Source of the DNA: Streptosporangium becharense
GTDB taxonomy: Bacteria > Actinomycetota > Actinomycetes > Streptosporangiales > Streptosporangiaceae
Reading direction: 5' to 3'
DNA length: 64,000 bases
NCBI RefSeq assembly: GCF_014204985.1
Contig: NZ_JACHMP010000001.1
Span: 62,001-126,000, forward strand
Shown here one piece after another: positions 7,084 through 60,614 of the stretch (the first letter of the stretch is position 1; each line of letters starts with the position of its first letter). Position numbers and translations under genes: made by a program. A model generated the notes under the pieces. The model was not told the DNA's origin, did no database searches, and worked only from the letters and a program-made list of their open reading frames with translations.

Positions 7084-8088
7084 TCACGGCCTCCGCGGCC
7101 CCCCGGTGGCGGCGTCGGCGTAGCGGCGGGCCAGGCGCGCGAAGGCGTCCTTGAGCTCCGCCGGGCCGACGACCTCGATGTCGGCGTCGAACCTGCCGAT
7201 GATGGCGGCCAGGCCAGGCCATGACCACGAGCCCAGGACGAGCCGACAGCGGTTCGGGCCGAGTTCCTCGACGACTCCGTCATAGATGTGGCGGGACACG
7301 GCGGCGGCCGGCAGGTCGAGGATCACCTCGCCGCGGCAGGGCCAGCCGCCGGAGCCGCCGGAGCCCCGGAACCTGCCGGCCACGAAAGCGGCCACCTCGC
7401 CTCCGGGCAGCTCACGCGGGGTGAAGCGGGGCCCCGTGGGAGTGCGCGGGGTGATCCGATCGGCACGGAAGGTGCGCCAGTCCTCGCGGTCGAGGTCCCA
7501 GGCGACGAGATACCAGTTCCCGCCCCAGGTGACGAGATGATGGGGCTGCACCCGGCGCGGCGGGATCTGCACGCCGTCACCGTCCACCGCCGGCGGAGAC
7601 GCGGGGGTGTAGTCGAAGCGCAGCACCTCCCGGGCATGGACGGCGGCGCTGAGCGTCATGAGTACGCCGCTGTCGGCCTGCGGGGCCGGTCGAGTCGCGG
7701 ACCGCTCGACGGCGGTGACCCGGACGGTGTCGATCCGGTGGCGCAGCCGTGCGGGCATGACCTGCCGGACGGTGTTCAGCGCGCGCGCCGCGGCTTCCTC
7801 GATGCCGGCACCGGTGGTGGCGGCGATCTGGAGTGCGATGGCCAGGGCGACGGCCTGCTCGTCGTCGAACAGCAACGGGGGCAGCTCCGTTCCGGCGTCG
7901 AGCCGATACCCCCCGTCGGGACCTTTGGTGGTCGATATCGGGTAACCGAGCTCGCGCAGGCGGTCGACATCGCGGCGCACGGTACGCGGGCTGACCTCCA
8001 ACCGCTCGGCCAGCAGTGCCCCCGGCCAGTCCCGGCGTGCCTGGAGCAGGGAGAGCAAGGACAGCAGTCGCGCTGACGTCTTCGGCAT
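7084..8088 (-). CDS. HTH-WYL (YafY-type) transcriptional regulator
   Basis: 334 residues. N-terminal winged HTH (LLSLLSLLQARRDW, then LEVSPRTVRRDVDRLRELGY, residues ~5-50), a middle WYL domain (WGGNWYLVAWDLDREDWRTF) and a C-terminal WCX domain. WYL domains sense ligands or nucleic acid. ATG 8088 is chosen over an upstream GTG because it starts just before the HTH. It is divergent from the DinB-like gene at 8190, with a perfect inverted repeat between them, the usual arrangement for such a regulator and its target. Confidence 0.88.
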   Translation of the reverse strand: MPKTSARLLSLLSLLQARRDWPGALLAERLEVSPRTVRRDVDRLRELGYPISTTKGPDGGYRLDAGTELPPLLFDDEQAVALAIALQIAATTGAGIEEAAARALNTVRQVMPARLRHRIDTVRVTAVERSATRPAPQADSGVLMTLSAAVHAREVLRFDYTPASPPAVDGDGVQIPPRRVQPHHLVTWGGNWYLVAWDLDREDWRTFRADRITPRTPTGPRFTPRELPGGEVAAFVAGRFRGSGGSGGWPCRGEVILDLPAAAVSRHIYDGVVEELGPNRCRLVLGSWSWPGLAAIIGRFDADIEVVGPAELKDAFARLARRYADAATGGPRRP

Positions 8089-8105
8089 GACACCGATACT
8101 GCCCT

Positions 8106-8134
8106 GAGAAGCGGCCACAACCTGACCGCTTCTC
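8106..8134. promoter_or_regulatory. perfect inverted repeat, probable operator
   Basis: GAGAAGCGG (8106-8114) and CCGCTTCTC (8126-8134) are exact 9-bp arms with an 11-bp spacer. It lies in the 101-bp gap between the divergent WYL regulator and DinB-like gene, so it is the likely binding site of that regulator. Confidence 0.6.
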
Positions 8135-8189
8135 CTGCGACTGTGGTCCCGTGCCAAGCAACGAGAACGACCAGAAGGACCCGATCACC

Positions 8190-8768
8190 GTGACCGCCAC
8201 GACCACGCCCCCCACCGCTCTCGACGCTGAGCGGGCCGACCTGATCGCCCAGCTCGCGACCGTGCGATCCGCCCTGACCAACACCGTCCGCGGGCTCGGC
8301 GACGAGCAACTCGGCGAGCGCCCGACGGTCAGCGCGCTGTGCCTGGGCGGGCTGATCAAGCACGTCGCGTCCGTGGAGGAAGGATGGATGCGCTTCGTGG
8401 TCGAGGGCCCGTCGGCGATGCGTTACGACCTGCCCGACGGTGTCACCTGGGCCGACTTCGCGGCCGGTACCGCACGTGAGCTCCCGCAGTGGGCGATCGA
8501 CCGCCACAACGACTTCCAGATGCTGCCCGGCGAGACGCTGGCCGGGATCATCGCGCGCTACGAGCAGGTCGCCGCCCGCAGCGAGGAGATCATCGCCTCC
8601 GTCCCCGACCTGTCGGCGACGCACCCGCTGCCGGAGGCGCCCTGGCACGAGCCGGGAACGGTGTACAGCGTGCGCCGGGTGCTGACGCACATCATCGCCG
8701 AGACCGCCCAGCACGCCGGACACGCCGACATCCTGCGCGAGACGCTCGACGGCCGGACGTCGACCTGA
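8190..8768 (+). CDS. DinB-family (DUF664-type) protein
   Basis: 192 residues from GTG 8190, with AAGGA about 10 bp upstream; a GTG at 8151 is the alternative. It shows the DinB four-helix pattern: LIAQLATVRSALTNTVRGL, a conserved GLIKHVASVEEGWMR (first metal-ligand His) and a late HIIAETAQHAGHADILRE with further His ligands. DinB/YfiT-like proteins are metal-dependent thiol transferases or damage-inducible enzymes. The paired WYL regulator and shared operator suggest inducible expression. Substrate unknown. Confidence 0.8.
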   Translation: MTATTTPPTALDAERADLIAQLATVRSALTNTVRGLGDEQLGERPTVSALCLGGLIKHVASVEEGWMRFVVEGPSAMRYDLPDGVTWADFAAGTARELPQWAIDRHNDFQMLPGETLAGIIARYEQVAARSEEIIASVPDLSATHPLPEAPWHEPGTVYSVRRVLTHIIAETAQHAGHADILRETLDGRTST

Positions 8769-9417: not shown

Positions 9418-10398
9418 GTGCGCGCCGACCGGTTGGTCTCGCTGGTGCTGCTGCTGCGGCAGCACGGCCGGTTGTCCGCGGTCGCGCTGGCCCGCGAGCT
9501 GGAGGTGTCCACCCGCACCGTGCTGCGCGACATCGAGGCGCTGTCCGCAGCCGGCGTCCCGGTCTACGCCGAACGCGGCCGGCACGGCGGTTTCGCGTTG
9601 TTGCCCGGTTTCCGGACCGAGCTCACCGGACTGAACCACGACGAGGCCCTCGCCCTGCTGATCGCCGGATCGCGGCGTGGCGCGCAGGCGTTCGGCCTCG
9701 GCTCGGCGCTCGCTTCGGCGATGCTCAAGGTGGTTGACGCGCTACCTGAAAGCTATCGGGACACCGCGGCCGGTGCGGCCGAGCGATTGCTCATCGACCC
9801 GGAGACCGACCTCCTCTCGCGCCGGCTGGTCGATGAGGAGGTGCCTGACACCGTAGTGGCCGAGGTCCGGCGCGCGGTGCTCGCCGGACACAAGCTGCGC
9901 ATCCACTACGCGGCTGCGGACCAGACCCCGCAGTGGCGCACGGTGGACCCGATCGGCCTGGTCACCGTACGCGACCGGGGCTACTTGTTGGCCACGAGGT
10001 CCGGTGCGGACCGCACCTACCGGCTGTCCCGGGTCTTGGCCGCCGAGGAACTCGCCGAACCCGCACAGCGACCGGACCGGGTCGATCTGGACCGGGCCTG
10101 GCAGGAACGCAGCACGCGGTTTCGGACCGGCGGCGACCAGGTCACCGTGCTGGTACGGGTGGACCCGGCGCGGCGGGAGGACCTGGTGGGCACCGCGCTG
10201 GCCGTCCGCGCCGAAGAAGCCGACTCAGACGGCCGGCTACGTCTGGAGGTGACCTTCCAGGATCCGAGACACGCCGAGTGGGCGCTGTGGCAGCTCGCCA
10301 CGGACGCGGAAGCTCTGGCCCCGCAGTGGTTGCGCACCCCCCTGCGCGACCGCGCCGCCGCGATCGCCACCCGGTACGAGTGTCAACCGGAGAGTTGA
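9418..10398 (+). CDS. HTH-WYL (YafY-type) transcriptional regulator
   Basis: 326 residues. HTH at the extreme N-terminus (ADRLVSLVLLLRQHGRLS, then LEVSTRTVLRDIEALSAAGV), WYL domain with RTVDPIGLVTVRDRGYLLATR (~165-185), and a C-terminal WCX part (VTVLVRVDPARREDLV). Start GTG 9418 begins the HTH directly. It is divergent from the RidA gene, so the shared operator probably controls both genes. Confidence 0.88.
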   Translation: MRADRLVSLVLLLRQHGRLSAVALARELEVSTRTVLRDIEALSAAGVPVYAERGRHGGFALLPGFRTELTGLNHDEALALLIAGSRRGAQAFGLGSALASAMLKVVDALPESYRDTAAGAAERLLIDPETDLLSRRLVDEEVPDTVVAEVRRAVLAGHKLRIHYAAADQTPQWRTVDPIGLVTVRDRGYLLATRSGADRTYRLSRVLAAEELAEPAQRPDRVDLDRAWQERSTRFRTGGDQVTVLVRVDPARREDLVGTALAVRAEEADSDGRLRLEVTFQDPRHAEWALWQLATDAEALAPQWLRTPLRDRAAAIATRYECQPES

Positions 10399-10647: not shown

Positions 10648-10713
10648 GGGGGTTGCCGTAGTACTCGCGGAAAATCGGGCTATTCCCCGATTTTCCGCGC
10701 TACGGCAACCCCC
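10648..10713. repeat. back-to-back Tn3-type terminal inverted repeats
   Basis: GGGGGTTGCCGTAG (10648-10661) and CGCGGAAAATCGGG (10666-10679) are mirrored exactly by CCCGATTTTCCGCG (10686-10699) and CTACGGCAACCCCC (10700-10713). The left copy has a 4-bp TACT insert between the two blocks. A GGGG outer end and an A-rich inner block are typical of Tn3-family ends. As RNA it would also form a strong hairpin. Confidence 0.55.
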
Positions 10714-48165: not shown

Positions 48166-49649
48166 ACATCGCTGATCGCCGCGCGGATCGCGTCTCGCAC
48201 CGCTGCGGGCGAGGCGGCGATGCGGGCCGCGCTGGTCGAGAAGTACAACACCGTGCGCCCGTTCCTGCGGCTGCTGGGCGAGTCCAAGGCGCTGTCGGCG
48301 GCGCCGGGCGGGCGCCGAGCGCTGGCCGCGGTACGCCGGCTGCCGGAGCTGTCGCGACGGCAGGTCAGCAAGAGGCCGCTGCTGCCCAAGGAGATCGACG
48401 CCGCGCTGGTGGCCGCGTCGTGGAAGCGGGCGGTGTATGCCAACCCGGACCTGCCTCAAGGGCGGTGGATCGTGACGCGTACGTCGTGTGCGTGCTGGAG
48501 CACCTGATTCGGTCCCTGACGATCAGGGATGTGTTCGCCTCGCCGTCGCTGCGCTGGGCTGACCCGCGCGCGCATCTGCTGGCCGGGGCGCAGTGGGAGG
48601 CGATTGCCCAGGACGTGCTGGCCTCCCTGTCGCTTACCGATCCCGTCCAGAAGCATCTGAACGACAAGGTCTTGGCCCTGGACGCGGCCTGGAAGCAGAT
48701 GGCCGCCCGGCTGGAGGAAGCGGCGAGGACGCGCTGGTCTCGGTGGTGACCCCGGCCGGCGGCGGTCGGGCCCGGCTGTCGGTGGAGAAGCTCGGCGCGC
48801 TCGGCGAGAGCGAGTCGCTGGCATGGCTACGGGCGACCTGCCAGGCCATGCTGCCCCGCATCGACCTGCCCGAGCTACTGCTGGAAGTGCACGCCTGGAC
48901 CGGGTTCCTGGACGCCTACGTGCACCTGGCCGACATCTCCACCCGCATGAACGACCTGCCGAGATCGCTGGTGGCGCTGCTGATCAGCGATGCCTGCAAT
49001 GTCGAATTGACACCCGTGATCAAGGCCGGGGACGAGGCGCTGACCCGGGGCCGGCTCCCCCACGTGGACCAGAACTACGTCCGCGGCGAGACGCACGCCG
49101 CAGCCAACGCGATCCTGATCGAGCACCAGGGCCGGGTGCCGATCGTCGCGGCGTGGGGCGGCGGGCTGCTGGCCTCGGTGGACGGGCTGCGCTTCGTCGT
49201 CCCGGTCAAGACGATCAACGCCGGGCCCTCACCCAAGTACTTTGGCTATAAAAGGGGTCTGACCTGGCCCAACGCAGTAAATGATCAAGTGGCGGGGATC
49301 GGGCAGATGGTCGTGCCCGGCACGCCCCGCGATTCCCTCTACATCCTGGACTGCCTGATCAACCTGGATGCCGGGCCGAACCCCGAGGTGGTCACGACGG
49401 ACCAGGCCAGCGACAGCGACATGGTGTTCGGGATCTTCTCCATGCTCGGCTACCGGTTCGCGCCCCGCTTCGCCGACCTGGGCGACCAGCGGTTCTGGCG
49501 GGCCGACCTGCCCGGCGGCAGTACTGGCGACTACGGAGTGCTGGAGGCGATCGCCCGGAACAAGGTGAACACCAAGAAGGTGCTCACACAGTGGCCGGAC
49601 ATGGTGCGGGTCGCCGGGTCGCTGGTGACCAACCAGGGGGGGCTCACCC
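48166..49649 (+). pseudogene. Tn3-family transposase, frameshifted and interrupted by IS4
   Basis: Starts inside TnpA (ALVEKYNTVRPFLRLLGESK), shifts frame at ~48465 (AVDRDAYVVCVLEHL) and again at ~48722, then runs long: LGALGESESLAWLRATCQAM, VDQNYVRGETHAAANAILIE, TTDQASDSDMVFGIFSMLGY, ending NQGGLTQGR at the IS4 target site. The ~200 N-terminal residues are missing, and no continuation is visible beyond the IS elements. Confidence 0.85.
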
Positions 49650-51410
49650 AAGGCCGGGTAGTTAGGGTTTCTGGCCTGCTGGCAAGGGGCCGGGGGAAGC
49701 CGTGGTCGCGGTGTAGATGCCGTGGCCGATCTTGCGGATGAGGCCGCGTTCGGCCCAGCGAGACAGCTGCCGGTACATCGTGTTCAGGGTGATGTCGCCG
49801 AGGTGGAGGGCGATGTCGCGGGGGTGCCAGAGCCGGTCGGGATGTTCGTGGATCAGTGTCAGGACGCGGTGGTGGCGGCGCTTGTTCGGGGTGGTGTGCC
49901 GGTCGTCGCGGGAGGCGGTGGGGAGTGTGGGCGGGGGATCGAGGAGGGTGATATCGAGGCTGGTGACGGCGCGGCTGCGATCGGGTCTGCCGTCGGGGCG
50001 GCGTTCTTTGTAGCGGGACATGGGTGACTTGACCTTGCGGGTGCTCACGCGCGGGCGGCGCGGTGGGAGCAGGGCGGTCAAGGTGGCGTGGCCGATGGCG
50101 CCGACCAGGTCCGTCCCGTCGGTGATCACACCGGTGGCCTGGAGGACTTGGTCGCGGGCGGTCTGGAAGGCGATGGTGAAGGAGCAGCGGTCGGGGTCGG
50201 TGCCGGGGCGGGACTCGGCCGCGTCCACCATCACCGTGCGCAGCAGTTGGTAGAGCGTGAGCAGGGCCCACATCTCCTGTTCCAGGCCAGGGCGGTCGCC
50301 GGAGCGCAGGACGCGGCCGTTCATGATCGTGTGACGGAGAGCGTAGTAGGCCGATTCGTGTTCCCACCGCTGGTGGTAGAGGTCGACCAGGGCCGCGGCC
50401 GGGTAGCGGTCGGCGTCGACCAGGCTGCTGGCCAGCCGGTAGGAGCCGACAAAGACGGTTCCGTCCGCGCAGGTCACGGTGATGCGCGCCTCGATGATGC
50501 GCATCTGGACAGCGCCGATCACCGACAGATAGGAGCCGTCGCCAAGCCGGCGCAGGATGGGAGTGCGCCGGTTACCGCGCAGCCGGCCCAGGACCTGCGC
50601 GCCGGTGGCCCTCACCTCGGCCAGGAAGTCGTTGCTGTCGAAGCCCTTGTCCCACAACACCAGCATGTCCGGGGTCAGTAGGTGCAACAGCCGCCGGGCA
50701 TAGCTCGTCTCGCCCTCGCTGGTCGGGCCGAAGACCGCGCCGATCACGGCGCGGGTGCCGGTCTCCACCAGCGTCATCAGCTCCAGCAGGGGGTAACCGC
50801 CGTGCCCGACCGAGCCTAGCCATGCCTGGTTACGGGCGGTGTCGGGGGCCTTCAGCGAGCTGCAGCCATCGAAGGAGACCGGGCGATAGGCGCCGAACCT
50901 CGCACCTGGTGTTCGACGCCCGGCCAACGGCCCGGACACGACCTCGAACAATCGGCGCATCGACACGCTGCCGACCCGCCGACGCAGGTCACGCAGAGCT
51001 TTGGCGGTCGGTGTCACCACCACCAGCCCGGCCAGGCCCGTCGTCAGCTTCTGCCAGACCAGCCGGTAGCCGATCTCCGGGAACAGGCACATCGCCAGCA
51101 GGAAGTAGACGCCGACCCGTGAGGGCAGGTCCCGCAGGCGGCGCTGCACGGTTCGGGTCTCGTCCAACACCGCGTCGACCAGCTCGAACGGCATCAGCGC
51201 GGTCAGCTCCCCGAGGTGCCCGGGCGCGAACACGCCCTCGGCTACCGTGACACGACGGGTGATGGCAGACTGTGCGGACAGCGGAGTCTCCTCACGAAGA
51301 GCGATCTTGGCCGAAAGCCCTTCTACCGGAGCTCCGCTCCTTCGTTCACGCCCCGTTCACTCTGTGAGACGCTCTTGCGCCGCAGCTCCAGGCTCTAACT
51401 ACCCGGCCTT
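49650..51410 (-). mobile_element. IS4-family element, copy 2 (complete)
   Basis: 1761 bp, exact 16-bp terminal repeats AAGGCCGGGTAGTTAG / CTAACTACCCGGCCTT, and 12-bp target duplications GGGGGCTCACCC at 49638-49649 and 51411-51422. Inserted in a Tn3 transposase gene. Sequence appears identical to copy 1 outside the ends and the nested insert. Confidence 0.93.
49662..51233 (-). CDS. IS4-family transposase
   Basis: 523 residues. N-terminal IS4 domain (FAPGHLGELTALMPFELVDA, LRDLPSRVGVYFLLAMCLFP), DDE core with YRPVSFDGCSSLK (first D), VLWDKGFDSNDFL (second D) and the YREK-type YHQRWEHESAYYAL (E), and a C-terminal winged-helix-like end (PDRLWHPRDIALHLGDITLN). GTG 51233 is the listed start; the frame is open further upstream (VTVAEGVFAPG), so translation may begin earlier. 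Intact and probably able to move copy 1 too. Confidence 0.93.
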   Translation of the reverse strand: MFAPGHLGELTALMPFELVDAVLDETRTVQRRLRDLPSRVGVYFLLAMCLFPEIGYRLVWQKLTTGLAGLVVVTPTAKALRDLRRRVGSVSMRRLFEVVSGPLAGRRTPGARFGAYRPVSFDGCSSLKAPDTARNQAWLGSVGHGGYPLLELMTLVETGTRAVIGAVFGPTSEGETSYARRLLHLLTPDMLVLWDKGFDSNDFLAEVRATGAQVLGRLRGNRRTPILRRLGDGSYLSVIGAVQMRIIEARITVTCADGTVFVGSYRLASSLVDADRYPAAALVDLYHQRWEHESAYYALRHTIMNGRVLRSGDRPGLEQEMWALLTLYQLLRTVMVDAAESRPGTDPDRCSFTIAFQTARDQVLQATGVITDGTDLVGAIGHATLTALLPPRRPRVSTRKVKSPMSRYKERRPDGRPDRSRAVTSLDITLLDPPPTLPTASRDDRHTTPNKRRHHRVLTLIHEHPDRLWHPRDIALHLGDITLNTMYRQLSRWAERGLIRKIGHGIYTATTASPGPLPAGQKP

Positions 51411-51442
51411 GGGGGCTCACCCCGAAGTGTGGACACCGATCG

Positions 51443-52333
51443 TTATGCGGCGAGCAGCACCCTATCGACGGTCTGCTGCTCGTAGTCATTCGGGCTGAGG
51501 TAGCCGAGGGCGGAATGTCTTCTTCGGGTGTTGTAGCGGGTGATCCACTTGAAGACGGCCAGGCGGGCCTCACGTGCCGAGGGCCAGCGCTTGGCGCCCT
51601 GCAGCGTCTCGCGTTTGAGGCTGGCGTTGAACGCCTCCGCGGCGGCGTTGTCGGCGCTGGTGCCGACGGCTCCCATGGATTGGTGTACGCCGAGTTCGGC
51701 ACAGACCTTGGCGAACTCGGCCGAGGTGTACTGGGCTCCATGATCGGAGTGGAAGATCGCGCCGTCCAGGCTGCCCCGGATCGCGGCGGCGGCCCGCAGC
51801 GCGTCGGTCACCAGCTTGGTGCGCATGTGGTCGGCGATCGACCAGCCCGCCAATCGGCGTGAGCCCAGATCCAGCACGGTCGCCAGATAGAGGAACCGGC
51901 CATCGCCGACGGGCAGGTACGTGATGTCGCCGACGTAGCGCCGGTTCGGGGCCGGTGCGGTGAAGTCCCGCTGGATCAAGTCGGGCACCTTGTGATGCGA
52001 TGGCTCGGGCACCGTGGTGCGCACCTTCTTGCGCAGGTGCAGCCCGACGATGCCGGAACGGCGCATCACTCGTGCGACCCGCTTGTGGTTGACCCTGCGC
52101 CCCCGGGCCCGCAGCTCAGCGGTGACGCGTGGACTGCCGTAGGTGCCGTCGAACGCATCGTGGATCTGCTTGATCTCCTCCGCCAGCGCGGCATCGGCCG
52201 CGGCCCGCTCCGCCCGGGCTGGAGCGGCCTTGCGCCACCGGTAGAACCCCGAGCGGGACACCTTCAAGATCCGGCACAGCCGCTTCACGCCGAAGGCGTC
52301 CCGATGGTCGTCAACGAACTCGAAGCGGCTCAC
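51443..52333 (-). CDS. IS3-family transposase OrfB
   Basis: About 295 residues of the integrase core: HRDAFGVKRLCRILKVSRSG, RRYVGDITYLPVGDG (first Asp), AIFHSDHGAQYTSAEF (second Asp), DNAAAEAFNASLKRE (Glu) and RYNTRRRHSALGYLSPNDYE. No independent start is clear; it overlaps orfA in a different frame and is probably made by -1 frameshifting in the AAATATTTC region near 52355. Confidence 0.9.
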   Translation of the reverse strand: MSRFEFVDDHRDAFGVKRLCRILKVSRSGFYRWRKAAPARAERAAADAALAEEIKQIHDAFDGTYGSPRVTAELRARGRRVNHKRVARVMRRSGIVGLHLRKKVRTTVPEPSHHKVPDLIQRDFTAPAPNRRYVGDITYLPVGDGRFLYLATVLDLGSRRLAGWSIADHMRTKLVTDALRAAAAIRGSLDGAIFHSDHGAQYTSAEFAKVCAELGVHQSMGAVGTSADNAAAEAFNASLKRETLQGAKRWPSAREARLAVFKWITRYNTRRRHSALGYLSPNDYEQQTVDRVLLAA

Positions 52334-52665
52334 CAGTTCGTCTCTCCGGCGAAATATTTCGCCGCCCGGCGCAGGATGTCGCGCTCCAGCTCCAGCTCCA
52401 GCTCCCGGATCCGGGCCTTGAGCTGCTTGTTCTCCTCTTCCAGCACGTCGTCGGACGATAGCGGGCCCCGCGCTAGCCGCTTGACCGGGCCCGCCTTCTT
52501 CGCCCCGGCCGTGCCGTTCGCGCGGGCCTCCTTGACCCACAGGCGCAGCGTCTCGCGGTTGATCCCCAAGTCCCGGGCCACCGACGCGTACGTCCGCGCC
52601 GGATCAGACAGGTACAACGCGACGGCGTCCGCCTTGAACTCCGGCGGGTACGACTTCATCGCCAC
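52330..52665 (-). CDS. IS3-family transposase OrfA
   Basis: 111 residues: HTH (YPPEFKADAVALYLSDPART, DLGINRETLRLWVKEARANG) and a leucine-zipper region (EEENKQLKARIRELELELER). First 14 residues match the deleted copy at 23855-24178. Confidence 0.9.
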   Translation of the reverse strand: MAMKSYPPEFKADAVALYLSDPARTYASVARDLGINRETLRLWVKEARANGTAGAKKAGPVKRLARGPLSSDDVLEEENKQLKARIRELELELERDILRRAAKYFAGETNW

Positions 52666-52725
52666 GTGGAACTCCTTGTCTCCGGATTTCCATCATCCGG
52701 TATTCAAGGTGTCCACACCTCGGGG

Positions 52726-53143
52726 GCAGGGCCCACGGCCGGCCTGCTGTACGGGGCGGACTTGCGTGAAGGGGCCGCCGCGGCCGCCTACCAGGCGATG
52801 GTCGGCGGGTGGGAGCGCTGGAGCGCGCAGGCCGTCCGCGACGACGTCGACGGCGCCCCGGACCGGGCACGGGTCGACCCGCCGCCGCCCCGGGCCGAGG
52901 TCGCGGTAATGAGGGCCGGCGCCCTGCGGGCAGCCTGGCCGCCGCCCGCCAGGAGCTCGTGGCCGTGCGCGGGGAGGTCACGCTGCGCGGGCTCGGGGCT
53001 GAGGAACTGGCGGACAGCCGTTATCGATGAGAATGATCTTGTTGGGCAACCCAGGGCAGAAGTGGGATACGGGGTATCGGGTTGGGTCGGACCGGGGCGC
53101 CCTGCCGTGATTGCTCACGGTGGGTTTCCCTGGCCCGCCCGCC
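52726..53143. other. unassigned sequence, including the 3' end of the group II intron
   Basis: 52726-53050: short frames only (AGLLYGADLREGAAAAAYQA ... in one), no family recognised, and it is not the expected Tn3 transposase C-terminus. Beyond ~53060 lie domain VI and the 3' boundary of the intron. Confidence 0.4.
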
Positions 53144-53179
53144 GCACCCGGCGTGCGCGTCTCCACGCACCGGGCGCTC
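53144..53179 (-). ncRNA. group II intron domain V
   Basis: Minus strand GAGCGCCCGGTGCGT, loop, ACGCGCACGCCGGGTGC: a ~34-nt hairpin with an AGC near the 5' strand, an internal bulge and a GGAGAC-type tip, 20 nt after the maturase stop as expected. Confidence 0.6.
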
Positions 53180-53198
53180 CACGTGCCTTGCCCGTCGG

Positions 53199-54602
53199 TC
53201 AGCTGTCAGCAGCTGCCGGGTCCGGGGTCCATGGGGTCGCGATGTTGCCGCCGCGATAGCGGTAGCGCTTCACCGAGACGCTGGATGCGCCGGTAAAGGC
53301 GACGCCCTGGTGAGCGATCCTCCAGCCTCGATCGCAGAAGCGACGTCGGAACTCGACCATGCCGAGCCGGGCCTTGCCCGCGTATTTGCGACGAATCCAG
53401 CGCATCAACCGCCCCCAGGTGAAGGCATCGATAGCGCCGAAGATCGCCTTAGATACTCCGTGCCGGAAGTAGTTCGCCCATCCGCGTAGCATCCGGTTCA
53501 AGCTGAGAATCAGCTCGGCCAGATCCTGATTGCGGGTTGACCTGTGGGTCTTCGCCAACACCTTGTCCTTGACCGCCTGAACGGCCTTCTTGGACGGTTT
53601 GGTGTAGACGTAGTACTTCGAGGTCCCTCGTTTCCGCAGGCGGCGGATGTGGTGCCCGAGGAAGTCGAAGCCCTCGTCGATGTGGACTACGCGGGTCTTG
53701 TCCGGTGCCAGTCGCAACCCCAGTGGGGCGAGCACACTGGCCACCTCTCCACGCAGTTCTTCGGCATGGTGCCGGTCACCCGACACCATCAGGACGAAGT
53801 CATCAGCGAATCTGATGAGCCTCCAGTTGCCCTGGCCTCGGGTTCTGCGCCGGTTCCGCTGTCGCCAGGTGCTCGTCTCCTGCTGCCATTGCCGGGCGAA
53901 GTGCTCGTCCAGCGCCGTCAGGGCGATGTTGGCCAGCAGCGGGGATAAAATCCCGCCTTGCGGGGTGCCGGTCCAGGTCTCCTCCCGAGTTCCGTCAGTC
54001 GTCATGACCCCGGACTTTAGGAACGCCTTCACCAGCGCGTTCACGCGCTTGTCCTTGATCCTCGCCCGCAGGCGGTCCATCAGCGCCGTGTGGTCGATTT
54101 CGTCGAAACACGCCGTGATGTCAGCCTCCAGAACCCAGTGATAGTTGATGGGTTCGGAGGCCAAATGGTGGATCTCGGCTATCGCATCATGCGCGCGCCG
54201 GTTGGGGCGAAACCCATACGAGCACGGCAGAAACTCCGCCTCGAAGATGGGTTCGAGAACCGACTTGAGGCTGGCCTGAACCACCCGGTCAGCGACGGTA
54301 GGAATCCCGAGCTTGCGTAACTTTCCGCTTGCTTTGGGGATCATCACCTGCCGCACCTCTACCGGCGTGAACTCGCCTGACTTCAGCGAGTCGCGGATCT
54401 GGTCCAGGAACGCCTCGACTCCAATCCAGGTCTCGATCTGAACCACCGTGGCCCGATCGATCCCCGGAGTCCGCGCACCGACGTTGCTGGACACGCGCTC
54501 CCACGCGTGCATCAAGAACGCCGGGTCGTAGACGAGGTTGAACAGGTCACCGAACCGGCGGCCGAGGTCATCGGTCGCCCAACGGTGCAACTTGGTCTGC
54601 AT
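53199..54602 (-). CDS. ltrA: group II intron reverse transcriptase/maturase
   Basis: 467 residues. RT blocks: PGIDRATVVQIETWIGVEAF, IPKASGKLRKLGIPTVADRV, LPCSYGFRPNRRAHDAIAEI, VLEADITACFDEIDHTALMD, TPQGGILSPLLANIALTALD and the catalytic FADD box in RLIRFADDFVLMVSGDR (~263-275). Thumb/X domain: DFLGHHIRRLR and SLNRMLRGWANYFRHGVSKA. The C-terminus resembles the group II maturase-specific domain; no HNH endonuclease is seen. It promotes splicing and reverse-splicing mobility. Confidence 0.92.
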   Translation of the reverse strand: MQTKLHRWATDDLGRRFGDLFNLVYDPAFLMHAWERVSSNVGARTPGIDRATVVQIETWIGVEAFLDQIRDSLKSGEFTPVEVRQVMIPKASGKLRKLGIPTVADRVVQASLKSVLEPIFEAEFLPCSYGFRPNRRAHDAIAEIHHLASEPINYHWVLEADITACFDEIDHTALMDRLRARIKDKRVNALVKAFLKSGVMTTDGTREETWTGTPQGGILSPLLANIALTALDEHFARQWQQETSTWRQRNRRRTRGQGNWRLIRFADDFVLMVSGDRHHAEELRGEVASVLAPLGLRLAPDKTRVVHIDEGFDFLGHHIRRLRKRGTSKYYVYTKPSKKAVQAVKDKVLAKTHRSTRNQDLAELILSLNRMLRGWANYFRHGVSKAIFGAIDAFTWGRLMRWIRRKYAGKARLGMVEFRRRFCDRGWRIAHQGVAFTGASSVSVKRYRYRGGNIATPWTPDPAAADS

Positions 54603-55278
54603 CCTCCGTACCGCACGCTCGGCTGACCACGGGTCGGGTCAGGCGCTGGCACCGGTGTTCACCGGTGCGTCTTCGGACATTGCCGTCCCTTCGTTGTCTG
54701 GCTCGCTGCCGCCCTTCCCCAGGTGGCTGGCTCTCCCGGCCTCGGAGTACTACGGCGGCTCCGTCCCATCCGTCTGTTCGGCCGACGCCGGGCCTATCCC
54801 AGGTCGGCGCCTCTGGAGGAGGTGTGACCGGGAGTGATCACGGATGGTTCCCACGTTCACTGCTGTCCGATCGACGGGTTAGGCACCCGGCTCTGCCCCT
54901 GCGGCATCGCCACGGCTACGCCGTAGTCCTTCACCGTGGCCTCCGGGCCCAGGCTCTTAAGACCCGACCCGAAGTTCCCCGCTCCGTGATGAGGGAGTGG
55001 GTACGCACCGCCATCCAGCCCATATCCACCGGGTTGGAGCTGGCAGACACGTCAAGAGGCGTAACGACACCGGTTCCTCGCGTATACCTTCCCGTCTCGC
55101 TCACCGCGCCCGGCCCATCCGGTAGTGCTGGGCCGACGCGACTTTGTCGAGGCTGCTCCCACCCTCCCCGGCGGCTCCCGGCTCAGGCTGCCTCCAGCTT
55201 CACCTCGCCGCTACGACGGGGATGAGATGGACGGTCTTTCACCTCCATTCGGAACAGCAGCGCCTCGTGGCGCACTAA

Positions 55279-56171
55279 CAACTCCTAACAGAATGATCAG
55301 CGGGTGAGGCGTCGCCAGCAGATGATCGATGCGGCCGGCGTCATGAAGGCCTCGTGCATGTCGTCGCGGATCTCCCAGCGGATGCGCAGGCGGCGGAACC
55401 AGTGCAGCAGCGCGATCGTCTGCTCGATCACCCAGCGATGCACGCCGAGCCCGGAACCGTGCGGGGTTCCCCGGCGGGCGATGACGGGCTTCACACCCTT
55501 GGCCCAGACCAAGCGGCGGTACTTGTCGTGGTCGTAACCGCGGTCGGCGTACAGCGTCTTCGGTCGTTGCCGGGGCCGCCCGCGTCGGCCCCGGACCGGT
55601 GGGATGCCCTTGAGCAGCGGCATGAGCTGGGTGACGTCATTGCGGTTGCCGCCGGTCAGGCCGATCGCGAGGGGGATGCCGTTGCCGTCGGCGATCACAT
55701 GGTGTTTGGAGCCCGTCTTTCCCCGGTCGACCGGGCTCGGCCCCGTTTTGGGCCGCCCTTGAGCGCCCGGACGTGAGAGCTGTCGATCACCGCCTTGGAC
55801 CAGTCGAGCTTGTCGGCGGCGTGCAGTTCGGCCAGGAGGAGCTGGTGCAGTCGTTCCCACACGCCGGCGTGATGCCAGTCGCGCAGGCGCCGCCGGCAGG
55901 TCATTCCCGAGCCGAAGCCCAGTTCCTGGGGCAGGAACTCCCACGGGATCGCGGTGTAGAGCACGAACAGGATGCCGCACAGGGCCTTGCGGTCGTCCAG
56001 CCGCTTACGACCGGGGTAGCGCTGCCGTCGCTCCGTCTTCGGCAGCAGCGGCTCGATCCGTTCCCACAAGCCGTCCGAGACGATCCACGGAGGCTGCTCA
56101 CCCTTCCTCACGCGCAGATCAACGACCGTCCAGACGGACGGATACGGCCAAGGTCATTTTGTTAGGAGTTG
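55279..56171 (-). mobile_element. IS5-family element (complete)
   Basis: 893 bp. Ends CAACTCCTAACAGAATGA and TCATTTTGTTAGGAGTTG (one mismatch in 18). 3-bp target duplication TAA at 55276-55278 and 56172-56174, as expected for IS427-group IS5 elements. It stands 3 bp from the 5' end of the group II intron. Confidence 0.85.
55297..56111 (-). CDS. IS5-family transposase (two overlapping frames)
   Basis: Frame 1 (56111-55695): WIVSDGLWERIEPLLPKTER, LCGILFVLYTAIPWEFLPQE, MTCRRRLRDWHHAGVWERLH, KAVIDSSHVRALKGG. Frame 2 (to 55297): GSKHHVIADGNGIPLAIGLT, TLYADRGYDHDKYRRLVWAK, VHRWVIEQTIALLHWFRRLR. The catalytic DSS, ADRGYD and E fall in both frames, so a frameshift near 55740 (GGGG/CCCC runs) is needed to make the full ~270-residue enzyme, as in IS427-type IS5. 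Confidence 0.88.
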
Positions 56172-56225
56172 TAAGACTTGTGCAACCAGGTACACGCGAT
56201 TGAGTCCGCCCAGGTCAGTGGCGTT

Positions 56226-57158
56226 CTACTGATCGGTGGGGAGGCGTCCGACGGCGTCTTCGAGGTCGGCGTGGGCGGGCAGGGTGCAGCGGCGGGTGGT
56301 GTCCAGGCGGGCGTGACCGAGAAGTTCGGCGACGACGACGATGTCGACGCCCGCGCGCAGCAGGTTGGTGGCGAGGGTGTGCCGCAGGATGTAGGCGAAC
56401 AGGGCAACAGCGCCTGCTTCGTCGAGGATGTCGGCGTCGGTGGCGAGTTCGTCGATGAGCTGATCGACGGCCCTGGTGGTGAGACGCCCACCGCGGCGGT
56501 TGAGGAGCAGCGCGGGGTTGTCGGCCGCGCCGGGCCAGGATGCGCGCTCGGTGCGCCACTCGGCGACCGAGGCCCGGGCGGTGCCGTCCAACAGCGGGAT
56601 CTCGCGTGAGGTCTCGCCTTTGCCGGAGCGGACGATGACCTTGCCCTTGCGCGCGGAAAGGGGGACATCGTCGTCGTCCAGGGCGACAAGTTCGGCGATC
56701 CGGACGTCGGAGTAGAACAGCAGCCGGCCGATGGCGCGGTCGCGGGCGAGGGGGCGTCGTTCGACGGCGCGCAGATACCGCTTCTGCTGGCGGGCACCCA
56801 GGGCGCGGGGCGCGAGCTTGGGGGCATCGTCGCGGCGGACGATCGCGGGGCCGAGCCCGAGCTGGGCGAAGAAGTGGTCCAGGGCGGTGAGGTGGGCGTT
56901 CACGGTGTTCGATGCCCAGTGCAGGACGGTCTTCATGTGGGTCTTGTAATCGCGGACGGCGAAGTCACGGTCGTGAGCGTCGGTGAGCGGGTCGCCGTCC
57001 AGGCTGCTGCCATCCAGCCAGGCGAGGAAGGTCCGCACGCGGGAGTCGTAGGCGCGGCGGGTGTCGCTGTCCAGCGGGGCCCGTTCGAGGGCCGCGGCGT
57101 AGGCGGCGTGGACGGTGGCGTACGTCTGCGGTACCGCTTGGTACTGCCCCCCCCACAT
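56226..57158 (-). CDS. tyrosine recombinase lacking the nucleophile
   Basis: 310 residues from ATG 57158. Core-binding domain ~20-105 (RAYDSRVRTFLAWLDGSSLD, HLTALDHFFAQLG), catalytic domain ~130-305. Box I Arg is present (FYSDVRIAELVALD, though GLR has become DVR), Lys region VIVRSGKGETSREIPLL, box II YILRHTLATNLLRAG (usually HVLRH) and GH in VVAELLGHARLDTT. The catalytic Tyr position reads RRCTLPA instead of RRYTLPT. Probably inactive in strand cleavage. It lies beside the WD40 cassette and an 11-bp repeat pair. Confidence 0.85.
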   Translation of the reverse strand: MWGGQYQAVPQTYATVHAAYAAALERAPLDSDTRRAYDSRVRTFLAWLDGSSLDGDPLTDAHDRDFAVRDYKTHMKTVLHWASNTVNAHLTALDHFFAQLGLGPAIVRRDDAPKLAPRALGARQQKRYLRAVERRPLARDRAIGRLLFYSDVRIAELVALDDDDVPLSARKGKVIVRSGKGETSREIPLLDGTARASVAEWRTERASWPGAADNPALLLNRRGGRLTTRAVDQLIDELATDADILDEAGAVALFAYILRHTLATNLLRAGVDIVVVAELLGHARLDTTRRCTLPAHADLEDAVGRLPTDQ

Positions 57159-57168
57159 GCCCCTCGCA

Positions 57169-57224
57169 ATATCAGAAGTGTTTTCCCGGAGCTAAAGGTA
57201 GCCCCGGACCGCGATATCAGAAGT
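57169..57224. repeat. paired ATATCAGAAGT repeats
   Basis: ATATCAGAAGT at 57169-57179 and 57214-57224, direct, 45 bp apart, just upstream of the recombinase start and 34 bp before the left inverted repeat. They may be recombinase-binding sites. Confidence 0.5.
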
Positions 57225-57257
57225 AGCAAGATCGACCTCGAACCCGAGTGGAGGGGG

Positions 57258-57360
57258 TCCCGGACTGGCGGCAAATCCAACGGATGTGGGCCTGACCTGT
57301 ATTGATAGAGCTTGGCCCGTCGTTTCGCGGTCATGTTTCCCAAAGAGTCTCCGCAGGTCA
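57258..57360 (+). repeat. 103-bp inverted repeat, left copy
   Basis: Starts TCCCGGACTGGCGG and ends GTCTCCGCAGGTCA. Matches the reverse complement of 59645-59747 at 93 of 103 positions with no gaps. It lies 106 bp upstream of the WD40 start codon. Confidence 0.88.
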
Positions 57361-57466
57361 GCGGCAACATCGTTGGATTCACCGCGATTACTACGGGGAC
57401 TTCTATCACCGTCGGCCCGGCACTCGGTGCTCGGCCAGTGGACCACCCGTGATACCTATGGCCACC

Positions 57467-59587
57467 ATGTCTAGATCTACCGTTATGCCCCATGTCGGAG
57501 AGGCCGCACTGCACAGGTTGCGGATACGGCTGCAGGAGCTGTATCGGCACGCGGCATGCGTTGCCGAACTCACCGGTCACGGCGACGAGGAGATTCATGC
57601 GGTGGCGTTCCATCCCGATGGTCACCTGCTGGCCAGCGCGGGCGGGGACGGGACGGTGCGGTTGTGGGAGACCGCCACCGGACAGCCCGCCGGTGACCTC
57701 CTCACCGGCCACGACGGTTTCGTTTACGACGTGGCGTTCCATCCCGATGGTCACCTGCTGGCCAGTGCTGGGGAGGACGGGACGGTGCGGTTGTGGGAGA
57801 CCGCCACCGGACAGCCCGCCGGTGACCTCCTCACCGGCCACGACGGTTCTGTCTACGACGTGGCGTTCCATCCCGATGGTCACCTGCTGGCCAGTGCTGG
57901 GGAGGACGGGACGGTGCGGTTGTGGGAGAGCGCCACTGGGCAACCCGCCGGTGACCTCCTCACCGGCCACGACGGCGACCGCGTCCGTGCGATGGCGTTC
58001 CACCCCGGCGGGCGTCTCCTCGCCCTTGTCCACGACCAGAGCGTGCAGTTGCGGGACCTGGCGACCAGGCAGTCCGTTCTCACCATCTCCGCCAACAACG
58101 TCCGCGAGATCGTCTTTCACCCCGACGGCCACCTGCTGGCCGTCAGTCTCTTCTACAGGAAGCCGACTCAGCTGTTGTACAGCACCACCGGACAACCCGC
58201 CGGCGACCTCTTCAACGACCTTCCCCACACGATGAGGGCCTTCTCCCCCGACGGGCGTCTCCTCGCCTTCGCCGACGACGAGGTCGTGCGGTTGCTGGAC
58301 CTGGCGACCGGTCAGTCCGTTCTCACCGTCTTCACCGGCCACGTCGACGAGATCGCCTTCCACCCCGACGGCCACCTGCTGGCCGTCGCCATCGACTCCA
58401 CTCAACGCGACGAAGCCTCGGCAGGCGGCGGCCCGGTCGTGCGGCTGTGGGACCTGAACATCGGGCACCTCGGTGCGGGGGGCACCGCCGGCTGTACCTT
58501 CGCGCTCGAGGTGTTGCGCTGCCGCGAACTACCCCCCTGGGAGCAGGTGGCGTTCGTCGTTGAGGAACTCGGCGGCGAGGTGGCGCAGATCCGGCCGTTG
58601 TGGGAGGCCGCCCATGCCGAGTGGGTCAGCGGACACCTCGGGCTCATCAACGCGGTGGCGTTCCACCCCCACGGCCACCTGCTGGCCAGCACCGGCAACG
58701 ACGGGACGGTGCGGTTGTGGGAGACCACCACCGGACAACCCGTTGGTGACCCCCTTACCGGTCACGACGGCCCCGTCTACGGCGTGGCGTTCCACCCTGA
58801 GGGTCACCTGCTGGCCAGCAGCGGTAAGGACGGGACGGTGCGGTTGTGGGAGACCAGCACCGGACAACCCGTCGGCGATCCCCTCACCGGCCACGGCCAG
58901 TACGTCTGGACGGTGACCTTCAGTGCTGACGGTCACCTGCTGGCCAGCGCCGGTGACGACGGGACGGTGCGGTTGTGGGAGGCCGCCACCGGACGGTACG
59001 CCGGTGAAGCCGTCAACGCTTCCGGGGACCGCCCGCACAATGTGTATTCCATGGCGCTCCACCCCGACGGACGTCTGCTGGCCACGACCGACTACAAAGA
59101 CGACCACGGTTCCCTGCTGCAGTGGTGGGACGCCACCACCGGGGAGCCCGTCGGTGAAGCCCACGAATTCAACACCAAAGGCATACCGGGGCTGGCGTTC
59201 CACCCCGACGGGCACCTGCTGGCGATCGGTGGCGGGTGGGAGGTGCAGCTGTGGGACCCGGCCACCCGGCTGCCTACCGGTGAGCCCATCGCGCACCGCG
59301 GCCGCATCCAGGCGATCGCGTTCCACCCCGGTGGGCGCCTGCTGGCCAGCGCCTGCCTGTTCGACCCGGAGAAACCGTCGCTGGTGCAGCTGTGGGACCT
59401 CACCAGCAGGGAGGCCGTCGGTGAGCTCCTCACCGGTCATCACGGCCGGGTGGTGGGGCTTGCCTTCCACCCCGACGGCCACCTGCTGGCCACCACCGAC
59501 GGCCTCCTGACGGACACCGGCGAGGGGATGAGCCGGTCACGTCCCGCGCTGCTTCCCCTTTCCGAGTCCATCCGCGCCGGAAGATGA
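57467..59587 (+). CDS. 14-repeat WD40 beta-propeller protein
   Basis: 706 residues from ATG 57467 (ATG 57458 and 57485 are alternatives; none has a Shine-Dalgarno). Fourteen WD repeats are countable: seven in ~40-330, a ~45-residue helical linker (LPPWEQVAFVVEELGGEVAQ), then seven more in ~385-690, so two seven-bladed propellers. Units follow GHdg-VAFHPDGHLLASAGEDGTVRLWE. Repeats 1-3 are nearly identical at DNA level with a 126-bp period. No other domain, signal or membrane segment. Enclosed by the 103-bp inverted repeats. Protein-protein scaffold; partner unknown. Confidence 0.9.
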   Translation: MSRSTVMPHVGEAALHRLRIRLQELYRHAACVAELTGHGDEEIHAVAFHPDGHLLASAGGDGTVRLWETATGQPAGDLLTGHDGFVYDVAFHPDGHLLASAGEDGTVRLWETATGQPAGDLLTGHDGSVYDVAFHPDGHLLASAGEDGTVRLWESATGQPAGDLLTGHDGDRVRAMAFHPGGRLLALVHDQSVQLRDLATRQSVLTISANNVREIVFHPDGHLLAVSLFYRKPTQLLYSTTGQPAGDLFNDLPHTMRAFSPDGRLLAFADDEVVRLLDLATGQSVLTVFTGHVDEIAFHPDGHLLAVAIDSTQRDEASAGGGPVVRLWDLNIGHLGAGGTAGCTFALEVLRCRELPPWEQVAFVVEELGGEVAQIRPLWEAAHAEWVSGHLGLINAVAFHPHGHLLASTGNDGTVRLWETTTGQPVGDPLTGHDGPVYGVAFHPEGHLLASSGKDGTVRLWETSTGQPVGDPLTGHGQYVWTVTFSADGHLLASAGDDGTVRLWEAATGRYAGEAVNASGDRPHNVYSMALHPDGRLLATTDYKDDHGSLLQWWDATTGEPVGEAHEFNTKGIPGLAFHPDGHLLAIGGGWEVQLWDPATRLPTGEPIAHRGRIQAIAFHPGGRLLASACLFDPEKPSLVQLWDLTSREAVGELLTGHHGRVVGLAFHPDGHLLATTDGLLTDTGEGMSRSRPALLPLSESIRAGR

Positions 59588-59644
59588 CGCTCGGCCAAGA
59601 CGAGCGCCGACAGCCCAGTCGCCTGTGCGCACCTGCCCGGCGAG

Positions 59645-59747
59645 TGACCTGCGGAGACTCTTTGGGAAACATGATCGCTGAACGACGGGACCAGCTCTAT
59701 CGATGCAGGTCAGACCCACACCCGTTGGATTTTCCGCCAGTCCGGGA
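59645..59747 (-). repeat. 103-bp inverted repeat, right copy
   Basis: Reverse complement of the left copy with 10 substitutions and no indels. It starts 58 bp after the WD40 stop. Confidence 0.88.
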
Positions 59748-59817
59748 TCCCTGGAGATCGCAGTGTCAGCGACCTCACGGCCGCTTTTTCGAAGCGCCGG
59801 ACACGATGTCATCGATG

Positions 59818-59847
59818 TGACGACATATTCGTCGTCAACATGACGAC
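59818..59847. promoter_or_regulatory. TGACGAC dyad operator
   Basis: TGACGAC-ATATTC-GTCGTCA (59818-59837) followed by a third half-site TGACGAC (59841-59847). It lies 14 bp before the GTG of the HSP18-regulator-like gene, whose product may bind it. Confidence 0.55.
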
Positions 59848-59860
59848 GTGGAGGTGTCTT

Positions 59861-60290
59861 GTGCGTCCCGCTTATGACCTGACCTGACCCGCACGAGGTC
59901 GCGCGCTGGATCGAAGATCACGGTAGCGATGAGGGCGAGGCCCGTCATGCTCGGTTCCGTCCGCCCGGGGCCGAGCACATCTGGGCCGACTACCTGGCCT
60001 CGCTGGCCCAGTTCGTCCCTCGGCCAGGCCGAGTCGAGGAGCTGACCGCCGATGAGGCGTTGGCCGCGCTGACCCTGACCCGGGCGGTGCGGGCCTGGAC
60101 CACCAGCATCGAGCCGGACCTCATCGAGGCGGCCCGAGCGGCCCGAGCGGCCGGAGCCACCTGGGACGCCCTGGCCCCGTACCTGGGAGTGGCCGACCGG
60201 CGCGCGGTCCAACGCCGCTATGCCCGCCTCGCCACCCCAACGCGCCGGACTGGGCGTCTGGTGACGACTTCACCGCCGTCGCCGAGCTGA
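59861..60290 (+). pseudogene. HSP18-transcriptional-regulator-like gene, frameshifted
   Basis: GTG 59861 follows GGAGG; it reads VRPAYDLT and meets TGA. In the +1 frame the protein continues DPHEVARWIEDHG, VEELTADEALAALTLTRAVR, IEPDLIEAARAARAAGATWD, LAPYLGVADRRAVQRRYARL, an HTH-like end seen in proteins annotated as HSP18 transcriptional regulators. An extra T in the TGACCTGACC repeat explains the break. A real lesion, or a sequencing error in a short repeat. Confidence 0.55.
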
Positions 60291-60379
60291 TGGCCGTGCA
60301 CGGCTACGCCCGCCAGCCCGACACCGGCGACGGCGTCGTGCGGTGGGCCAGCACCCGCACCGACCTGGGGTCCCCGTAG

Positions 60380-60614
60380 TACTCCGCCGGCGACAACTTC
60401 GGCGAAGCCGTCTCGATCCTCGACGTCACCAGCGACGGCAAGGCCGAGGTCATCGTCGGCACCCCCGGCAAGTACGAGGGCCGCGGCATGCTCGCCATCC
60501 TGCGCGGCACCGCCACCGGCGTCTCCCCCGCCACCACCGCGCAGGTCGTCTACGGCCTCGACGTCTCCATGGGCACGCGCGGGGGGCCACTTCGGCTCCC
60601 ACCTGCTGCGTTGA
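60380..60614 (+). pseudogene. FG-GAP repeat protein, C-terminal fragment
   Basis: After a TAG at 60377 the frame reads SAGDNFGEAVSILDVTSDGK, AEVIVGTPGKYEGRGMLAIL, GVSPATTAQVV: an integrin-like FG-GAP repeat with the D-x-D-x-D calcium loop partly kept (DVTSDGKAEV). A 1-bp loss near 60592 separates the natural ending HFGSHLLR-stop. Such proteins are normally secreted. Confidence 0.6.

Follow-up and report, generated by a model that had tools for sequence, protein, structure and literature searches.

We propose that positions 57254-59751 of the window (by which we mean the whole stretch of 64,000 nucleotides analysed here, C1:62001-126000 of a 7.82-Mb genome) very probably represent a non-autonomous composite element, in which two inverted 150-bp miniature elements derived from Tn3-family transposons (TIMEs) enclose a WD40 gene, and which was moved in trans. 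A repeat search over a 10-kb stretch gave an inverted pair at 57254-57360 and 59645-59751, 107 nt long, 90% complementary and with 2284 nt between the copies; the next-longest pair in the same stretch was 32 nt at 72%. Counted exactly, the copies are identical at 96 of 107 positions without indels, so that the 103-bp inverted repeats of the initial annotation, with their 93 agreeing positions out of 103, are borne out and extend to 107 bp. The left arm (57254-57403, forward strand) is a type-A miniature element whose outer end begins at 57254 and whose outer tip has a weaker inverted counterpart, a degenerate inner end, at about 57370-57403; the whole arm is predicted to fold into one hairpin. 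The right arm (59645-59751, reverse strand) corresponds, from the repeat and arm alignments, to the outer 107 bp of type A in inverted orientation, with the inner third missing.

Most of the DNA between the arms (57404-59644) is occupied by the cargo gene, at 57458-59587 on the forward strand, which encodes a WD40 protein of 709 aa (Pfam WD40, E = 6e-105) with 14 GxLLA motifs, counted as G[HR]LLA, in agreement with the single 14-blade gene recognised initially; the reading frame is also open from a TTG at 57302, within the left arm. Relatives of this protein were found neither in 15 other genomes of the genus at E<=1e-60 nor in 149 other genomes of the family at E<=1e-50 (up to seven candidates scored per genome), and a promoter scan of 57150-59900 returned no site. 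A Pfam scan of the WD40 ORF gave no sign of a transposase inside the unit, as had been stated before. The arms, at 150 and 107 bp, are too short to encode a transposase, which sets the unit apart from an IS-bounded composite, and it differs from an autonomous Tn3-family unit transposon in having no tnpA between its terminal repeats, the single match in the genome lying outside the unit.

Both outer tips of 57254-59751 are abutted by TGGAG, exact and in direct orientation (57249-57253 on the left, 59752-59756 on the right). Random pairs of 5-mers in this stretch agree by chance at a frequency of 0.002, and when flanks were paired across different arms as a control, 2 of 992 pairs agreed at 5/5 positions and 7 of 992 at 4/5. 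The flanks of the left arm by itself are TGGAG and TATCA. A 5-bp direct repeat is the mark expected of Tn3-family transposition, and transposition of the whole unit by a Tn3-family element would thus be expected to leave such a target-site duplication where we observe it, at the outer tips.

The arms have relatives in many other genomes. The left arm is 84% identical to a 154-bp type-A element of S. minutum (G010), and a second element with related tips, type B, is 197 bp long and has more copies than type A among the matches listed (the genus searches for both types scored 40 first-look candidates per genome, an earlier genome search 8). The pattern GTAATCGCGGAAAATCCAACG, with up to three mismatches, is present in 13 of 16 genus genomes; reversed as a control, it is present in none of them. 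In a search of 200 family genomes, with four first-look candidates scored per genome, the type-A arm was matched at E<=1e-6 in at least 35 (own genome included), representing 15 of 68 genera, many of these matches covering the tip only; a plasmid collection gave one weak type-A match, in S. roseum pSROS01. The initial annotation had suggested searching for copies of the repeat around other cargo and in the rest of the same genome: the former led to related arms in Streptosporangium and Nonomuraea, while the latter gave nothing at a comparable score besides both arms, only two chance-level matches of 16-17 bases. Several arms and tips, of type A as well as type B, are crowded into 15 kb at one S. 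minutum locus (L037, G010:C502:24000-38528).

The tips of the two window arms have in common a 4-bp gap, which is absent from the other 13 aligned type-A arms, and the arms group together (support 0.82), as do both arms of a Nonomuraea composite (0.95). From the shared gap and the grouping within each composite, the window and Nonomuraea composites each seem to have been built from a single arm that was copied. Elsewhere in the window, at 10648-10713, a tight palindrome consists of two facing ends that resemble a related Tn3-type tip, with almost nothing between them; its left end reads GGGGGTTGCCGTAGTACTCGCGGAAAATCGGGC, and its right end lacks four bases at about the place where the cassette tips have their gap.

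Similar arms enclose quite different genes in other genomes. In S. pseudovulgare (L035, G001), type-B arms lie around a heavy-metal P-type ATPase gene, with outer flanks CTCTT/CTCTT and inner flanks TGCAC/CACCA; in S. minutum (L034), type-B arms with outer flanks TCTAG/TATAG enclose a sigma factor gene and a second gene without a Pfam match; and in Nonomuraea indica (L136), inverted type-A arms, the left one shortened on its inner side, surround genes for an MFS transporter, a PF00144 serine hydrolase and a sigma factor, with outer flanks TAGTA/TAGAC. A type-B cassette carrying an AHSA1-domain gene and an MDMPI_N gene was found in four genomes (G004, G010, G012 and, from another genus, G117); in each of the six possible pairs the copies are 97-99% identical over 1.87-1.99 kb, and the compared stretches of the four genomes have no other match of at least 250 bases. 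In two of the four genomes the copy is slightly shortened at one end, and the left and right outer flanks do not match (GTGAG/CGAAG in G004, GATCC/AGGAC in G010). The presence of this cassette in four genomes and two genera suggests that such units may spread between species. The earlier proposal of a cargo cassette moved in trans thus gains support from the outer 5-bp repeat, from the same ends around other cargo, and from the AHSA1 cassette, whose homology ends at the tips; the alternative offered with it, inversion of the interior, gained none.

Exact outer repeats are present in two of the eight composites compared: the window cassette and L035 agree at 5/5 positions, L034 at 4/5, L136 at 3/5, L088 and L033 at 2/5, and L037 and L149 at 1/5, a count that includes one cassette twice (L088 and L037), a composite with one type-A and one type-B arm (L033) and one with a degenerate tip (L149). 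We also compared the flanks of individual arms, keeping those that match within 6 bases of both query ends and dropping L137, L138 and L141 as duplicates of genomes already included. In exact register, none of these 32 full-length arms, 20 of which do not belong to composites, is bounded by its own exact 5-bp repeat, and one (L034) reaches 4/5; when shifts of up to two bases are allowed, three arms reach 5/5 (L034, L051 and L095), the control value of 2 in 992 referring to the exact register. In a looser list of 23 arms, none reached 5/5 and two reached 4/5 (L034 and L097).

The ends of the arms point to Tn3-family transposons as their source. A Tn3 transposase domain is present in all 16 genus genomes. 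In another genus of the same family, an element with tips at 128 and 9258 (L150) is flanked by GGTAT on both sides and encodes a TnpA of 1020 aa (PF01526, E=5.3e-115) along with a serine resolvase and passenger ORFs. Over the outermost 52 nt, the stretch just inside the tip included, it has 85% identity to the N. indica type-A arm used as query. Arm-like ends also adjoin a transposase type that combines DUF4158 and DDE_Tnp_Tn3 domains: at L085, a tnpA-bearing element with a broken reading frame has tips at 5206 and 8867 and flanks CTCCT/CTCCT; at L083, tips at 884 and 9303 are flanked by AGGAG/AAGAG, with a tyrosine recombinase just inside one tip; and at L084 an arm-like tip lies 90 bp before the start of a related transposase gene. 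Besides tnpA, the large Tn3-type element of L083 (884-9303) carries several passengers, among them a sigma-factor-like ORF. Among 30 tnpA loci compared with 1.5 kb on either side (L053-L082), an arm-like end stood out in five (L053, L073, L075, L076 and L081) but in none of the remaining 25, which places ends of this type with a single group of the several kinds of Tn3 transposase. A transposase-bearing element whose ends are the same as the window arm was not encountered, the best match being the 85% over 52 nt; from this resemblance, transposons of the L150 type are most likely the group from which the arms came, though not necessarily their exact parent. In the window's own genome, the single Tn3 transposase match at E<=1e-10 is at 48872-49633, in a truncated gene outside the element (48593-49741, forward strand; PF01526 positions 1-249 of 389, E=2.6e-70).

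Nearer to the cassette, and likewise outside it, a decayed tyrosine recombinase gene lies at 56226-57158 on the reverse strand (PF00589, E=3.6e-22). The DNA between the two relics (49662-56175) is a dense cluster of insertion sequences and an intron, with an IS4-type transposase at 49662-51233 (Pfam) and further transposase-like ORFs; the group II intron, at 53081-54602, comprises an Rfam match at 53081-53179, which is the sole match at gathering thresholds in 52500-60500, and a reverse transcriptase/maturase ORF at 53199-54602. To the right of the cassette, the TGACGAC repeats noted initially are visible in the sequence, and the regulator gene named with them is a putative one that may not be intact. 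An empty site, which the initial annotation had proposed as a further check, was not seen in the genus genomes: the right flank matches them in pieces only, none of which crosses the joint. Among the loci compared, the left flank matches decayed recombinase copies, and the right flank and cargo have no match. The best right-flank piece near the joint (99 bases, 87%) is in G015, where the DNA to its left differs from the immediate flank in the window. In that genome, this TGACGAC region (59780-59878) and a 30-base piece from just to the right of the IS5-like element, on the 3' side of the recombinase (97%; window 56180-56209), are found within about 200 bases of each other, at L157 6112-6305, and neither a recombinase nor a WD40 gene separates them; the joint as such has not been preserved. 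The proximity of the two pieces indicates that the IS5-adjacent DNA and the TGACGAC region belong together in a genome without recombinase or cassette between them, and the recombinase itself may sit on a separate small mobile unit.

The position of the recombinase gene raises the question of whether it acts on the cassette. Its start is 95 bp from the left tip, and between the two lie paired copies of ATATCAGAAGT, at 57169-57179 and 57214-57224 on the forward strand and outside the element, which may be the binding site of the neighbouring enzyme; both the pair and the Cys nucleophile of the recombinase had been pointed out initially and are present. On this basis, the recombinase could be supposed to excise, integrate or invert the WD40 segment at the 103-bp repeats, a role that we regard as extremely improbable. 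The enzyme has Cys in place of the nucleophile Tyr, which is retained in 8 of 8 translated homologues reaching the position, and Tyr in place of the HxxR His, retained in 7 of 7. The ATATCAGAAGT sites are on one side only and absent from the repeats, the recombinase lies outside the duplication, and tyrosine recombinases do not usually produce a 5-bp duplication. Some members of the family, moreover, adjoin Tn3 transposase genes, as resolvases would: homologues lie within about 2 kb of a tnpA match at 3 of 10 places in other genus genomes (G003, G010 and G015; not at the other seven), and in Alicyclobacillus one lies 23 bp before a DUF4158 gene. One exact copy of GGACCGCGATATCAGAAG is present in another genome (G006), no more than 20 bp from the tip of a related transposon, and two further genomes have it with 1-2 mismatches. 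The closest copies of the recombinase are fragments, 76-86% identical in protein and 85-91% in DNA. Lacking the intact Tyr and HxxR His of a TnpI-type tyrosine resolvase, 56226-57158 is read here as what is left of a TnpI-like resolvase that once belonged to an older Tn3 element; the truncated tnpA at 48593-49741 may, we infer, be a second remnant of that element.

Two further explanations accept a Tn3 origin of the ends and differ in what is thought to have moved. The cassette could be a unit transposon with long terminal repeats of 107-150 bp, in which internal deletion and capture put the WD40 gene in the place of the transposase gene. In favour of this, full-length type-A arms look like polar transposon ends, with a GAAAATC-like core (a consensus drawn mainly from outer ends) in 9 of 10 outer ends, the exception being the window left arm, and in none of 10 inner ends; for type B the corresponding counts are 16 of 22 and 19 of 22. 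Likewise, 6 of 7 same-type arm pairs separated by less than 12 kb in the genus genomes stand inverted with their outer ends out, three of the six sharing AHSA1-type cargo and thus not being independent, while the seventh is direct, at 11 kb; three mixed-type pairs have outer ends in (two) or out (one). These pairs come from 39 type-B and 11 type-A places among the matches listed, with shorter tip-only matches left out. Yet the arms keep a recognisable inner tip and a predicted single hairpin and also occur outside composites, L150 resembles type A over the outer 52 nt only, and at L148, outside the genus, two type-A arms (8071-8224 and 9574-9726) 1.35 kb apart, with Tn3 transposase-like fragments nearby, have their outer ends facing each other, which counts against a strict outward rule. 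We hold a long-repeat unit transposon to be unlikely. Still less likely, in our view, is that a miniature element lay beside an ordinary chromosomal WD40 gene, that an inverted duplicate of it arose on the far side of the gene, by two insertions or one intramolecular replicative event, and that the pair never moved as a unit. This would agree with the many arms that occur outside composites in the genus, with the lack of a further copy in the same genome, and with the 11 differences in 107 positions between the arms, which indicate that the arrangement is old. It is opposed by the exact direct TGGAG at the outer tips, a trace of movement of the whole unit that is not shared by the unlike flanks of the left arm alone, and by sister composites that appear to move as units.

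We thus favour the composite of two miniature elements, for which the following course of events may be envisaged. First, before any movement of the unit, a single miniature element would have come to lie on either side of the WD40 gene by copying; such a common origin of the two arms is suggested by the 4-bp gap that they share and by their sister position. A Tn3-family transposase from another element would then have bound both outward ends and joined them to the target TGGAG, with replication of the whole cassette, and the cointegrate would have been resolved either through homologous recombination or with the help of a resolvase supplied in trans. Today the cassette is probably stranded and immobile, since its own genome gave only the truncated Tn3 transposase match; the 4-bp gap falls within the tip that a transposase would need to recognise. 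We also consider, as a tentative and rather doubtful extension, that type-A arms are polar, one-sided transposon ends, a single arm being immobile and only outward inverted pairs being able to move, because no GAAAATC-like core is left at the inner tip of any of the ten full-length copies compared. If true, the family would possess a system for cassette capture, with single genes (WD40, heavy-metal ATPase, sigma factor and AHSA1-domain genes) being carried from species to species by borrowed Tn3 transposases.

The locus can be compared with several described systems. In TnpI-type Tn3 transposons such as Tn4430 and Tn5401, as outlined in the available part of PMC7157771, a tyrosine recombinase accompanies the transposase; the window recombinase likewise has relatives beside Tn3 transposase genes, and the repeats upstream of it are placed as an irs would be. 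It differs in being decayed and outside the cassette, with the tnpA relic about 6.5 kb off, beyond insertion sequences and a group II intron. Closer in layout are the integron mobilization unit (IMU) and the IS101-bounded composites treated in the sections available of PMC13367494, which are likewise short Tn3-derived units, inverted or direct, around cargo mobilised in trans; the host phylum and cargo differ from those of the window cassette, and the likeness is one of layout, not of arm sequence.

Closest of all are the TIME-COMPs, in print since 2014 (PMC4133298; Gomi and Yano 2026, PMC13367494), so that the initial view that no element with this layout had been described does not hold. As presented in the accessible text of these two papers, they are stretches of passenger DNA enclosed by two short miniature elements that have Tn3-type ends and stand in direct or inverted arrangement; they lack a transposase, show outer direct repeats of 5 bp (sometimes 6 bp), and are moved in trans by a Tn3-family TnpA; in PMC4133298, as far as its accessible text goes, direct repeats were present in only four of 18 TIMEs, and recombination between copies was suggested. 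The window arms (150 bp and a 107-bp remnant) fall within the 50-500 bp given there for elements with Tn3-type terminal repeats around a passenger, TGGAG matches the 5- or 6-bp outermost direct repeat, and the Pfam scan saw no transposase inside. The cassette thus has the sequence features of a TIME-COMP, and the comparisons given above support its putative movement in trans. The sets are likened by layout and not by arm sequence: here the arms are of 150 or 197 bp, the hosts are Streptosporangiaceae and the type-A inner end is degenerate. The hosts treated in those papers, in the same accessible text, are Pseudomonas, other Gammaproteobacteria and Enterobacteriaceae, often with resistance genes, and the word Actinobacteria is absent from their main text. 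In a literature search, no title or abstract opening among those listed named an actinobacterial TIME, and no paper searched combined Streptosporangium with miniature inverted-repeat transposable elements; the layout, known from other bacteria, seems not to have been described before in this actinomycete group. Annotation that relies on transposase genes misses mobile cassettes of this type. Compared with the TIME-COMPs in the text of those papers, the cargo here consists of single genes or small groups (WD40, metal ATPase, sigma factors, transporter), that is, ordinary regulatory, transport and repeat-protein genes, and the present cassettes would extend TIME-bounded composites from mainly Gammaproteobacteria to filamentous actinomycetes.
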